A stretch of 48,612 bases of DNA from Marinobacterium halophilum (GTDB taxonomy: Bacteria > Pseudomonadota > Gammaproteobacteria > Pseudomonadales > Balneatricaceae): assembly GCF_003014615.1 (NCBI RefSeq), contig NZ_PYGI01000027.1, positions 1 through 48,612 of the forward strand, in the 5' to 3' direction. The translations under genes were made by a program, and so were the position numbers. Below, piece by piece: positions 7,673 to 38,067 of the stretch. Below the pieces are notes generated by a model. It was given only the letters and a program-made list of their open reading frames with translations, did not search any database and was not told the origin of the DNA. The first letter of the stretch is position 1; each line of letters begins with the position of its first letter.

Positions 7673-8401
7673 ATGTCTTCATTGTTCGAAGAAATTGATA
7701 GCCAATCCTCCCCGTTGGGTCAGATCTCCCTGCGTCGACGCCGTATCCCCGTGCTGGGTGATCGGGATATCTATGAAGTGAAACTGGGCGACGAATTTTT
7801 AATGTCGAGCATGTTTGTGGACGCAGAAGAGGCCTTGTCGACGCTGGGTTTGGCGGCGGTCAAGGGCGACTCGCTCAGTGTGGTTGTCGGTGGGTTGGGG
7901 CTGGGTTACACCGCTGTAGCAGCCTTGAAAGACGAACGTATTGATGAACTGCTGGTGGTGGATGCGCTGGAAACGGTTATCGGCTGGCATCGGGATGAGC
8001 ATGTGCCGCTGGGTAAGATACTTAATGCAGATGCGCGCAACCGTTATGTGCTCGGCAGCTTTTTTGACTTGGCCACCGCGCCGGGCACGGGCTTTGACCC
8101 CAACAGTCCCGGCAAACAGTTTGATGCCATTCTGCTGGATATCGACCATTCTCCCACCGAGTATCTGAACCCGGCGAATGCCAGTTTTTATACCACGGCC
8201 AATCTGGCGCTGATGGCCGAGCAGCTCAAGCCCGAAGGCGTGTTTGCCATGTGGTCGCAAAACCTGCCGGACGCAGACTTTGAGGCGTTGCTGAAAACCG
8301 TGTTTACCCGTGTCGAGTCGCATGTGGTGGCGTTTGATAATCCGTTCCAGGGCGGTGAGTCCACCAACTCGGTATATGTCTGTGTGAAAGGGGGCGTGTA
8401 G
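7673..8401 (+). CDS. Spermidine-synthase-like class I methyltransferase-fold protein
   Basis: This 242-residue protein has the Rossmann fold shared by spermidine synthases and SAM methyltransferases. Motif I is VVVGGLGLGYTA (about residues 65-76), an acidic residue follows at LLVVDALE, and DAILLDIDHSP (about 151-161) occupies the position of the spermidine-synthase catalytic Asp region. It is shorter than a true spermidine synthase, lacks the N-terminal beta domain, and there is no speD nearby, so polyamine synthesis is doubtful. It probably acts on an unknown small substrate. It is a single gene, convergent with the VOC gene; the two stops are 12 bases apart. Confidence 0.7.
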   Translation: MSSLFEEIDSQSSPLGQISLRRRRIPVLGDRDIYEVKLGDEFLMSSMFVDAEEALSTLGLAAVKGDSLSVVVGGLGLGYTAVAALKDERIDELLVVDALETVIGWHRDEHVPLGKILNADARNRYVLGSFFDLATAPGTGFDPNSPGKQFDAILLDIDHSPTEYLNPANASFYTTANLALMAEQLKPEGVFAMWSQNLPDADFEALLKTVFTRVESHVVAFDNPFQGGESTNSVYVCVKGGV

Positions 8402-33589: not shown

Positions 33590-34681
<1,092 letters not shown>

Positions 34682-34703
34682 GGCGTTAGTCTGTTCTTCT
34701 CGC

Positions 34704-34735
34704 TACGGCCGGGCTCATGCCCGGCCGTATGCGTT
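34704..34735 (+). terminator. Terminator after ilvC
   Basis: TACGGCCGGGC and GCCCGGCCGTA form a perfect 11-base stem with a TCAT loop, followed by TGCGTTTT. It separates ilvC from the globin array. Confidence 0.85.
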
Positions 34736-35126
34736 TTAGCCTCTCTATTATCCCCGCTGTTGTTGATTCTTTTCTGCAGGCGCTGCCCGGCGTCATTATC
34801 CGAAGTTTTACCTGTCTGAGTGTTATCGAAAGGCTGCAATACTATTGTCATCTTCAGTAACCATACTTAAAGGATGGTTTTATTGTGATGTCTGTTTCAG
34901 CTCGCCATGAACCGGTCGGCAGGTCATCGTCGGATATCGTCAAATCGCAAAAATTAGATCACATTTGTTTGACCCAGATCGTGAACTGGATTGCATATGC
35001 TTGATCTCGTTTGGCTGCATGATATCTATACATTTACTAATAAAAATAATGTGACGATGACGTGGACCGGGCTTGATGCGGTGACCGGAAGCAGCACGCG
35101 CCATCTGAGTCAAGGACGCACTTACT
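34736..35126. other. Intergenic gap before the globin array
   Basis: These 391 bases have no supportable gene. The sequence becomes AT-rich toward 34940-35050 and should hold the promoter of the first globin gene. TTGATC at 35001 with ATCTAT at 35024 (17-base spacing) is a weak candidate. aaggacg lies 9-15 bases before the globin ATG. Confidence 0.35.
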
Positions 35127-35699
35127 ATGACAAGTACAATCGATTTTTCTGTTCTGTGTGAGCAGGCCAAGGCCTATGCCGGATTCGAACCCGAAGATGC
35201 CGCTATTCTCGCTCAGGAAGCTGACCGACTTCGCCCCTACCTGATTACCATCACTGATTCGTTCTATACCGAACTGCAAACCATCCCTGAAGCGCTGGCA
35301 TTTTTGGAAGGGCGTATTGATACGCTGAAGAAGACTCATGCGGCCTGGTTGGGCAAGGTATTTGAAGGCCCCTACGATGCGGATTTTGCCGCTTATATGC
35401 ATAAGGTTGGGGTGATCCATGTGCAGGTGAAACTGCCGGAAAAATTCATGACCAGCGGTATTGGCCTGATCAACAAGCATCTGATTCCCCTGTTGCCGCA
35501 GATTTACCGTGACCAGCCGGAAATGGTCGGGCCTTTGCTCAAGGCACTGAATGCGGCTACCAGCTTCTGTCTGTTGATCATGCTGGAGTCCTACCGTGGC
35601 CATGAATTGGAACGCTTTATGGAAGTGACCGGTATCAGTCGCGTGTTGTATAACAACCTGGCAGCCGCCTATCGTAACTCACAAGGGCGTGCCGCCTGA
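35127..35699 (+). CDS. Single-domain protoglobin-like heme protein 1
   Basis: This 190-residue protein consists only of a globin of the globin-coupled-sensor/protoglobin type. Proximal heme His98 lies in KVGVIHVQVKLP and a B-helix Tyr47 in DSFYTEL is placed as the distal residue that binds oxygen in HemAT and DosC. No output domain (GGDEF, methyl-accepting or kinase) is attached. The conserved core THAAWLGKVFEGPYDADF...KFMTSGIGLINKHLIP is shared with the next two genes. The first of three tandem paralogs, it has its own upstream gap. Oxygen or NO binding is likely; the biological role is unknown. Confidence 0.8.
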   Translation: MTSTIDFSVLCEQAKAYAGFEPEDAAILAQEADRLRPYLITITDSFYTELQTIPEALAFLEGRIDTLKKTHAAWLGKVFEGPYDADFAAYMHKVGVIHVQVKLPEKFMTSGIGLINKHLIPLLPQIYRDQPEMVGPLLKALNAATSFCLLIMLESYRGHELERFMEVTGISRVLYNNLAAAYRNSQGRAA

Positions 35700-35770
35700 T
35701 TCACGATCTAGCATGTTCGGTGTTTCTCTCTCCTGCGGCGGTCTCGGTCAGCTGAACGGCTGATCCGGGG

Positions 35771-35786
35771 CTGTCAGTCTTGACAG
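35771..35786. promoter_or_regulatory. Inverted repeat upstream of globin 2
   Basis: CTGTCA and TGACAG form a perfect 6-base inverted repeat with a four-base spacer, and TTGACA (35780-35785) within it is a consensus -35 box. The -10 candidates downstream (CAAAGT at 17 bases) are weak, so this may be an operator overlapping a promoter of globin 2. Confidence 0.35.
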
Positions 35787-35888
35787 TGTTTCCGAATAAT
35801 TACAAAGTCTTGAGTGATATATTTATGCAACGGAGTAGTGCAGCTATCGTGAATCGCTGTTCTGCATAGCAACAAGGATGACACACCC

Positions 35889-36461
35889 ATGAGAGAGATC
35901 GACTTTTCCCAACTAAATCAGCAAGCGAAGATGTTTGCCGGCTTCGAAGGCGCTGATGAGCATGTTCTGGAGCAGGCGCATGCCTTGTTGGTGGGTCATC
36001 TGGATCAGGTGACCGAGGCCTTTTACGCCGAATTGGGGCAAATAGATGAAACCGGGCCTTTCCTGGAAGGTCGTCTGGAGTCGCTTAAAGCAACTCATAG
36101 ACGGTGGCTGGAAAAGATTTTCACCGGCCCCTATGACGAAGACTTTGCGGCATACATGCACAAGGTAGGGGTGGTACATGTGCAGGTTCGTTTACCCGAG
36201 CGGTTCATGGCCAGTGGTATTGGGCTAATCAGTAAGCATTTGATCCCGGTACTGGCCGAGGCTTGCCGTGAAGATATTGCCAAGCTCGGTGTGCTGATGA
36301 AGGCGGTGAATGCCGTTACCACCTATTGTCTGATCATCATGCAGGTTTCATATCGTGAGCATGAGCTTGATCGGTTCATGGATGTAACCGGTATCAGTGA
36401 AGCCTTGTATAACAATTTGTCTGCTGCGTATCGGCAGAAAAATGGAGTGCCGGCAGAATAA
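35889..36461 (+). CDS. Single-domain protoglobin-like heme protein 2
   Basis: This 190-residue paralog of the first globin is strongly similar along its whole length. The heme His97 is in KVGVVHVQVRLP, Tyr46 is in EAFYAEL, and the segments GPYDEDFAAYM and FMASGIGLISKHLIPVL are nearly identical to globin 1. It starts 189 bases after globin 1 with aaggatg upstream, and a terminator follows. The duplication is old enough for about half the residues outside the core to have changed. Confidence 0.8.
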   Translation: MREIDFSQLNQQAKMFAGFEGADEHVLEQAHALLVGHLDQVTEAFYAELGQIDETGPFLEGRLESLKATHRRWLEKIFTGPYDEDFAAYMHKVGVVHVQVRLPERFMASGIGLISKHLIPVLAEACREDIAKLGVLMKAVNAVTTYCLIIMQVSYREHELDRFMDVTGISEALYNNLSAAYRQKNGVPAE

Positions 36462-36500
36462 GTCATATGTGCTGATGAGGATTTGAACCTGTGTCACGCC

Positions 36501-36523
36501 AACCCGACAAAGATCGGGTTTTT
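36501..36523 (+). terminator. Terminator after globin 2
   Basis: AACCCGA and TCGGGTT form a perfect 7-base stem with a CAAAGA loop, followed by TTT. Globin 3 must therefore have its own promoter. TTGATA at 36535 with AAAATG at 36558 (17 bases) is a candidate. Confidence 0.8.
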
Positions 36524-36624
36524 GTGTGCATGCCTTGATATTTGTAAAAGCCATGCGAAAATGACGGGCTTTGCCTGCTGTGCACTGCAGCTTGCTTTAC
36601 ACTCACTATCAAGGATGTACCTAT

Positions 36625-37209
36625 ATGAGTCAGGTCGACTTCGCCGCGCTGTGTCACCGGGGAAAAGTATGCTCGGGGTTTGATGCGGAAGATGAGCAAG
36701 TGCTCTTCGCGGAGGGCGGTAAACTGCTGCCGCATTTGGCCGTTGTGACTGAACAATTCTATACCGAGTTGCAGCAAATCCCGGCGACCGTGCCATTTCT
36801 GGAAGGACGTGTCGAATCACTGAAAGCGACGCACAAGGCTTGGCTTGAGACTGTATTTTCAGGGCCTTACGATGAAGCGTTTGCCGCGCGCATGCACAAG
36901 GTTGGTGAAGTGCATGTGCACGTCAAGTTGCCGGTGGAATTCATGTCCAGCGGAATACTGCTGATCAAAAAGCATCTGGTGCCGATTCTGGTTGAAACCT
37001 ATGCTGATGATGCTGCCAAGCTTGGACGGATGATGAAAGCGGTCAACGGTGTGACCGGTTTTTGTCTGATCATCATGCAAGAATCTTATCAGAGCTCATT
37101 GCTGGCACAGGAGTTGGACAAGTTCATGGCGATCACCGGGATCAGTCGTGCGCTGTTCAATAACTTGGCGTCTGCGTACAAGGTCGATAAAAAAGATACA
37201 GCGGCCTGA
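36625..37209 (+). CDS. Single-domain protoglobin-like heme protein 3
   Basis: This 194-residue protein is the most diverged of the three. Heme His97 lies in KVGEVHVHVKLP and Tyr46 in EQFYTEL. A four-residue insert (QESYQSSLLAQELDKFM instead of the shorter turn) lengthens the last helix connection, and two extra N-terminal cysteines (Cys10, Cys16) are unique to it. ATG 36625 is chosen because aagga precedes it by nine bases. It begins after the terminator of globin 2, so it is likely expressed separately. Function unknown. Confidence 0.78.
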   Translation: MSQVDFAALCHRGKVCSGFDAEDEQVLFAEGGKLLPHLAVVTEQFYTELQQIPATVPFLEGRVESLKATHKAWLETVFSGPYDEAFAARMHKVGEVHVHVKLPVEFMSSGILLIKKHLVPILVETYADDAAKLGRMMKAVNGVTGFCLIIMQESYQSSLLAQELDKFMAITGISRALFNNLASAYKVDKKDTAA

Positions 37210-37278
37210 TGGCATTGGGTTTGTTTGCCTCTGTCGAGTAGAATGCAGATTCAGCGTTTTGACAGAGGTTTCACAAGC

Positions 37279-38067
37279 ATGAGTGATCAGCCGCAGGATC
37301 CGGATACAGGGACTGAAGCAGGAGCAGAGTCGCAGGCAACACCCGATGCCGGACTTCAGCGCCGCAGAGGTGTGTACCTGTTGCCGAACCTGTTTACTAC
37401 CGCTGCCCTGTTTTCCGGCTTTTATGCCATAGTTGCCGGTATGAATGGTCAGTTCGAAGCAGCTGCCGTTGCCATTTTCGTCGCCATGTTGCTGGATGGG
37501 CTGGACGGACGAGTGGCGCGCATGACCAATACGCAGAGTGCCTTTGGTGCCGAGTACGATTCGTTGTCCGACATGGTGTCCTTTGGTGTTGCCCCGGCAC
37601 TGGTGACGTACAATTGGGTGCTGGGAGATATTGGTAAACTTGGTTTTTTTGCTGCGTTTGTTTACGCCGCAGGAGGTGCCTTGCGTCTGGCCCGCTTCAA
37701 TACCCAGATCGGCTCCGTTGATAAACGTTATTTCATTGGCTTGCCGAGCCCGGCGGCGGCGGCGGCCATCGCCGGCATGGTATGGGTGTGTGATGAATAC
37801 AGGCTGGACGTGACCGGTTGGGAATACGTTATTGCATTGTTCGTGGCATTGGCCGGCGTATTAATGGTCAGTAACACGTTGTATTACAGCTTCAAGGATG
37901 TGGACTTTCGCGGCAAGGTACCGTTCTGGATTCTGGCCTTGATTGCCCTGGGCCTGGGGATCATCTCGATCAGTGCATCAGTATCCCTGTGGGTTCTGTT
38001 TCTCTGTTACGCCCTTTCGGGTCCCATGTTGTGGGTCTGGCGACGTTCCCGACAGTTGCGCACATGA
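37279..38067 (+). CDS. pssA: CDP-diacylglycerol--serine O-phosphatidyltransferase
   Basis: This 262-residue membrane enzyme makes phosphatidylserine from CDP-diacylglycerol and serine. The CDP-alcohol phosphatidyltransferase motif DG-x2-DG-x2-AR-x8-G-x3-D-x3-D is complete (DGLDGRVAR...FGAEYDSLSD, about residues 74-99). About eight hydrophobic helices follow a 30-residue polar N-terminus. The start at 37279 has agaggttt upstream. Next to ilvC in many Pseudomonas relatives; here the globins lie between. Confidence 0.92.
   Translation: MSDQPQDPDTGTEAGAESQATPDAGLQRRRGVYLLPNLFTTAALFSGFYAIVAGMNGQFEAAAVAIFVAMLLDGLDGRVARMTNTQSAFGAEYDSLSDMVSFGVAPALVTYNWVLGDIGKLGFFAAFVYAAGGALRLARFNTQIGSVDKRYFIGLPSPAAAAAIAGMVWVCDEYRLDVTGWEYVIALFVALAGVLMVSNTLYYSFKDVDFRGKVPFWILALIALGLGIISISASVSLWVLFLCYALSGPMLWVWRRSRQLRT

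Follow-up and report, generated by a model that had tools for sequence, protein, structure and literature searches.

Three free-standing protoglobins of Marinobacterium halophilum as candidate haem sensors for a roadblock module

The window analysed here, a 48,612-nucleotide stretch of Marinobacterium halophilum DNA, carries three tandem forward-strand open reading frames, flanked by ilvC and pssA, that encode the single-domain protoglobins pg1, pg2, and pg3. Gene order and co-occurrence suggest, with a probability that we put at about one half, that these proteins act in trans as haem sensors feeding one roadblock module. A wider proposition, held a little more tentatively, is that, across several families of gammaproteobacteria, a detachable bis-histidyl protoglobin serves as the haem input of MglB/roadblock modules and that O2, NO, or redox state would thereby control switches of the small-G-protein type, with three paralogues of different interfaces feeding one roadblock module without a GTPase in Marinobacterium. 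We know of no settled role for free protoglobins in living cells. If the proposal is true, these globins would be separable sensors of gas or redox state serving a bacterial signalling module that has received little study. The repeated globin-roadblock pairing gives free protoglobins and Group 3 MglA systems each a testable partner, and the Marinobacterium triplet is a natural experiment in which the sensor diversified and the module stayed in single copy.

The protoglobin array

pg1 (35127–35699, 190 residues), pg2 (35889–36461, 190 residues), and pg3 (36625–37209, 194 residues from an ATG start, with an alternative longer TTG frame beginning at 36571) score 83.4, 88.3, and 85.5 bits respectively against the Pfam Protoglobin model PF11563, the cut-off of which is 25 bits. 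Each matches PF11563 alone in Pfam searches at E values up to 1, with no output domain, and none matches an NCBIfam model at E values up to 1. Pairwise identities are 59% between pg1 and pg2, 53% between pg1 and pg3, and 58% between pg2 and pg3. The domain scores, the lack of an output domain, and the presence of HisF8 and TyrB10 place all three among the protoglobin and sensor single-domain globins. This agrees with the original prediction of three single-domain protoglobins between ilvC and pssA, with the reading frames, the PF11563 scores, and synteny in seven congeners all in accord, and the proximal histidines at residues 98, 97, and 97 and the tyrosine of the FY-x-EL motif are found as it described. 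The start that it gave for the array, 34736, is intergenic, lying just past an ilvC terminator-like site (34704–34729), with the three reading frames inside the range. The same genome also encodes a globin-fused GGDEF-like protein (372 residues) and a flavohaemoglobin-like reading frame (399 residues), both named by eye. Spread of the globins on plasmids was considered and rejected, with a tblastn search of pg2 against 72,556 plasmid records returning a sole match, a distant haloarchaeal sequence of 29% identity.

Two forward-strand elements lie upstream of pg1. The CTAATAAAAATAA block at 35037–35049 is identical in all eight aligned upstream regions of the genus-level group, and a TTGAYC-NNN-RTC element at 34969–34982, kept in all eight by eye, is weakly FNR/Anr-like and is offered as a lead only, since its second half-site departs from what we take to be the FNR/Anr consensus. 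The terminator said to separate pg2 from pg3 is present in the window as a computed terminator-like hairpin (36501–36520, forward strand), but has no counterpart, by eye, in the seven aligned congeners; the region 34650–37300 holds seven terminator-like sites, compared with 2.9 in shuffles. A computed promoter-like site before pg3 (TTGATA, 16 nt, GAAAAT; 36535–36562, forward strand) falls in a block (CTTGA ... ARAAT) kept in 8/8 genomes by eye, with promoter-like sites overall numbering three against 3.0 expected by chance.

The neighbouring phospholipid and methionine-sulfoxide genes had been thought meaningful. Globin relatives in other families occupy other gene contexts, a conserved promoter-like block belongs to pssA itself, and msrP comes after that gene in four of the seven congeners, with none found within 2.3–2.6 kb beyond pssA in the remaining three (L047, L050, L051). 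On these grounds a functional meaning of the pssA/msrP neighbourhood is not supported.

Age and divergence of the triplet

The array is old. Our sample of relatives comprised 57 genomes, that of the window included, eight of which belong to the Marinobacterium genus-level group; three globin copies are present in all eight, and the order ilvC-pg1-pg2-pg3-pssA holds in the seven others. Weak matches in two genomes (G014, G026) and a fourth match in another (G004) are fused sensors (L017, L016, and L034 respectively) and were excluded from the copy counts. The sister genus Pontibacterium, with two genomes sampled, has a single copy closest to pg3; at one of its loci (L053) the globin lies between ilvC and pssA, and at the other (L052) a search next to the globin found no ilvC. 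In the stretch examined, a single copy is seen in M. jannaschii (L077) and in two further Marinobacterium records (L075, L076), so the triplet is absent from some species called Marinobacterium.

In a tree of 52 rows, which left out 18 of the 67 globins from loci (L101, the second L104 copy, and all of L107–L118), the three paralogues form separate groups with supports of 95/95 (pg1), 100/99 (pg2), and 99/91 (pg3), with pg1 and pg2 joined as sisters at 100/99. The L075 globin groups with pg3 (99/88), implying that copies were later lost or moved elsewhere in that lineage. One alignment, A6, left out 11 of the 67. Four residues missing from pg1 and pg2 are present in pg3 and in all five close single-copy relatives, so that pg1 and pg2 carry a shared deletion and the pg3 state is the older; the change ascribed to pg3 as an insertion was therefore polarised the wrong way. 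These residues are missing from the distant relatives L061 and L062 as well. Two extra cysteines had likewise been ascribed to pg3, of which C10 is common to pg1 of the window and C16 is kept in six of the eight group genomes, being absent from M. iners pg3 and from a near-identical genome (L051). Redox sensing through the pg3 cysteines is weakened by the inconstancy of C16.

Among seven genomes (the window and L069–L074), mean dN/dS is 0.074 for pg1, 0.076 for pg2, and 0.068 for pg3, rough values because dS is near saturation (median pS of about 0.7), calculated from the 19, 15, and 16 of 21 pairs with finite dS. Nineteen alignment columns are fixed within each paralogue and different between them, four of these being the deletion. 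Fourteen of the nineteen lie in residues 143–178 and none falls at TyrB10, HisE11, or HisF8, a distribution that suggests divergence in partners or in dimer formation and not loss of haem. A redundant amplification, in which the three copies share one role, is a very unlikely reading of the triplet. Tandem duplication is common, and related single-domain globins also occur as tandem pairs in L104 and L115–L117; against redundancy, the copies here are only 53–59% identical, each is kept in 8/8 genomes, and mean dN/dS is near 0.07 per copy (19, 15, and 16 of 21 pairs with finite dS).

The pairs at those four loci, tandem or near-tandem, belong to Methylovulum and Wohlfahrtiimonas, so globin arrays occur beyond Marinobacterium. 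The triplet is a conserved set, but no description of it was found in the literature searched, where Marinobacterium and globin are co-mentioned in one review only, each once.

The haem pocket

The haem-pocket comparison covered 70 globins, the three of the window and 67 copies from 50 loci. A histidine occupies the E11 position in 70/70, a count conditional on the motif by which all 52 loci were found, a peptide pattern from the stretch of the E-helix that immediately precedes this histidine. A pattern-free profile search returned nine more stretches (L054–L062), all with histidine at this position, and none of five fused globin sensors from the examined genomes has it. HisF8 is present in 69/70 copies and TyrB10 in 69/70, one row being incomplete. 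pg1, pg2, and pg3 each retain TyrB10, HisE11, and HisF8.

The conserved distal histidine aligns with residue 66 of the Geobacter sulfurreducens sensor globin GsGCS (PDB 2w31), the sole histidine in its E-helix stretch as counted by eye, and the title of the 2w31 structure paper has HisE11 and HisF8 coordinating haem. With the distal histidine aligned to HisE11 of this sensor in 70/70 copies, the haem of pg1, pg2, and pg3 is predicted to be bis-histidyl, the role of HisE11 being assigned by alignment. Structure prediction of pg3 by AlphaFold2, a haem-free model, gives a confident globin fold (mean pLDDT 93.3, pTM 0.83) closest to the globin domains of AfGcHK and GsGCS, with an added C-terminal helix at residues 175–192.

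Association with roadblock genes

The peptide pattern yielded 52 loci in a contig scan, of which 38 remain after removal of 12 from Marinobacterium and Pontibacterium and of L119 and L120, excluded throughout as showing 22–23% identity over part of the query. An MglB-type roadblock gene lies within 167 bp of the globin gene, on the same strand, in 21 of these 38 loci; it lies 2550 bp away in one, and 16 have none within the stretch examined, some stretches being short. Two genomes supply two loci each, and the genomes are related, so these adjacency counts, like the co-occurrence counts below, are not independent. In Methylomonas sp. LW13 (L082) the gap between the two genes is 14 bp by tblastn. 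An Acidocella MAG (L109, 6500–8500) has a pair of globin genes in convergent orientation, each with a separate roadblock gene at its side, the second globin lacking histidine at the F8 column of the alignment.

Co-occurrence was also counted in a class sample of 369 genomes, in which nine others match the globin by profile search; one (G368) was dropped, its match being a 398-residue frame without histidine at E11. All eight genomes with a single-domain globin carry a roadblock gene, compared with 45 of 368 class genomes overall (hypergeometric P ~2.8e-8, or 2.9e-9 for 9/9 with G368 included, a guide only since the genomes are related). The two genes are side by side in six of the eight and on different contigs in G360 and G361. 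In a further genome (G378; L142, 968–2572), the roadblock match forms the end of a 534-residue reading frame that starts with an ATPase-like region bearing a Walker-type motif, by eye. Among the relatives, all ten globin-bearing genomes have a roadblock gene, eight of the ten being one genus-level group, and 12 of the 22 with a roadblock gene have no globin.

Several of the adjacent pairs sit within an operon resembling the Group 3 MglA systems, and a globin gene of this subfamily is found in an operon in several other families. In L055 the order is a 156-residue protein, a 456-residue protein, an MglA-like GTPase (PF03029), a 212-residue protein, the globin, a roadblock protein (PF03259), a PAS protein (PF08447), and a PhnD-like protein (PF12974), with no Pfam match to the 456- and 212-residue proteins. 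The GTPase also occurs in L083, L086, L089, L092, L098, L099, and L110, and, where a Group 3 GTPase would have DAR in G5 and no lysine in G4, its G5 motif is by eye DAR in six of seven and DPR in L092. Additionally, a 213-residue homologue of the 212-residue protein from L102 was modelled with a mean pLDDT of 87.1, and its closest Foldseek matches are roadblock chains, MglB among them (best E value 3.6e-4, to MglB, with TM-scores of 0.33 for the query and 0.51 for the target), so the operon would hold two roadblock proteins. This gene order in other lineages indicates that the globin may be an optional subunit of Group 3 MglA-like modules, providing input to their MglB-type roadblock protein.

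In the genome of the window the corresponding genes lie elsewhere than the globins (L067) and form a six-gene module encoding proteins of 157, 413, and 210 residues, a roadblock protein (7707–8069), a PAS protein, and a PhnD-like protein, next to a gene that by eye is acnB-like. The module, which contains neither a globin nor a GTPase, is present in 8/8 group genomes and lies beside the acnB homologue in 7/7 congeners, with ferritin-like and lpxH-like genes on its other side in five of the seven, in the stretch examined. The roadblock module is accompanied by the PAS protein and the PhnD-like substrate-binding protein both here (L067, 8136–9363) and in L055 (5615–6846). Another, incomplete set of Group 3 MglA-like genes in the genome of the window (L068, 5091–6611, and G000:C19:34818–35039) comprises a GTPase with a DPR motif, by eye, a receiver-like protein of 329 residues, and a roadblock match below the threshold.

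That the Marinobacterium globins are not beside a roadblock gene counts against our preferred explanation, as do the 16 of 38 loci with no roadblock gene in the stretch examined and the 12 of 22 roadblock-bearing relatives that lack the globin. The main difficulty is the GTPase, which was not found at an E value of 1e-4 in 7/7 congeners and in two other globin-bearing genomes; no GTPase-based mechanism can therefore be general, and the function of the Marinobacterium globins cannot depend on that GTPase. One doubtful alternative is that the sensors have become detached from the roadblock module in Marinobacterium, each copy acting on a different partner, such as chemotaxis or c-di-GMP proteins. 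The displacement of the globins from the operon, the concentration of paralogue-fixed differences in the C-terminal helices, and the loss of the GTPase from the module would all suit such partners; however, the roadblock gene is kept in all ten globin-bearing relatives, and the module in every group genome.

It is also unlikely that the globins handle NO or O2 freely, as NO dioxygenase, nitrite reductase, peroxynitrite isomerase, or oxygen buffer, with the roadblock link incidental. The Marinobacterium genes are free-standing, and nitrite-reductase and peroxynitrite-isomerisation activities are reported for a Methanosarcina protoglobin (PMC4020757), but roadblock adjacency recurs, the genome already has a flavohaemoglobin-like reading frame, and a distal histidine ligand would be unexpected in a plain oxygen store. 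No support was found for the graded oxygen buffer suggested at the outset. The companion suggestion, of separate roles with partner proteins, is favoured by three old orthologous groups, low dN/dS, and a candidate partner in the roadblock module.

Proposed mechanism

If the three globins feed the roadblock module, O2, NO, or a change in haem redox state would displace the distal histidine, and this displacement may move the distal helix and helices G and H, which would form the dimer interface, together with the C-terminal helix. The added C-terminal helix could relay the change to the roadblock protein, altering the hold of the globin dimer on it or its release, and with it the output of the module, perhaps transcription through the receiver-like/winged-helix protein. 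By analogy of position and length, this may be the 456-residue protein. In Marinobacterium, where the globin gene lies outside the operon at ilvC-pssA and is triplicated, three inputs would converge on the one roadblock module beside the acnB-like gene.

Comparison with known systems

The passages of PMC4316618 on Group 3 MglA systems describe sets from beta- and gamma-Proteobacteria in which an MglA homologue is combined with one or two homologues of MglB and with a receiver-like/winged-helix protein. The operon beside the globin relatives, with its PF03259 roadblock protein, resembles this make-up. These passages name no signal for such systems, and the main text of the paper never uses the word globin. 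Group 3 MglA systems have the GTPase in the operon whereas the Marinobacterium module does not, and the latter is therefore a relative rather than a full member.

The globin domain of GsGCS (2w31) is the best PDB sequence match (E value 2.9e-34 with a 59-row profile), has the same fold, and is the sole one among the five matches listed with histidine at this E-helix column. It forms, however, the sensory part of a longer polypeptide, whereas the proteins of the window are free-standing with an extra C-terminal helix. The Methanosarcina acetivorans protoglobin (2veb and others) is also free-standing and of similar fold, but is distant in sequence (E value 1.2e-4). To our knowledge it has no signalling partner. 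Its E11 residue is given as phenylalanine in a passage of PMC3680402. The Tlr1989 globin of Thermosynechococcus (8h17), of about 200 residues, has a C-terminal tail that aligns with that of the window proteins, but has phenylalanine at the E11 column, by eye, in place of their histidine.

No paper containing both "roadblock" and "protoglobin" was found in a literature search mostly outside subscription journals, and "roadblock" with "globin-coupled" yields only HGbRL of Methylacidiphilum; among the titles and abstract openings returned for a roadblock/PAS/GTPase cluster, nothing looked relevant except the actinobacterial conservons. Passages of PMC4476040 describe HGbRL as a fusion of a globin to a Roadblock/LC7 domain, to which the globin is proposed to signal, with a Lys-His closed form and an occurrence said to be unique to one genus. 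The HGbRL globin groups with HGbI and the flavohaemoglobins rather than with the protoglobins. As described there, HGbRL is an example of a roadblock domain fused to a globin, one from another family, which favours a globin as roadblock input, with the two joined in one covalent chain in HGbRL, whereas the globins of the window are separate proteins of the protoglobin family.
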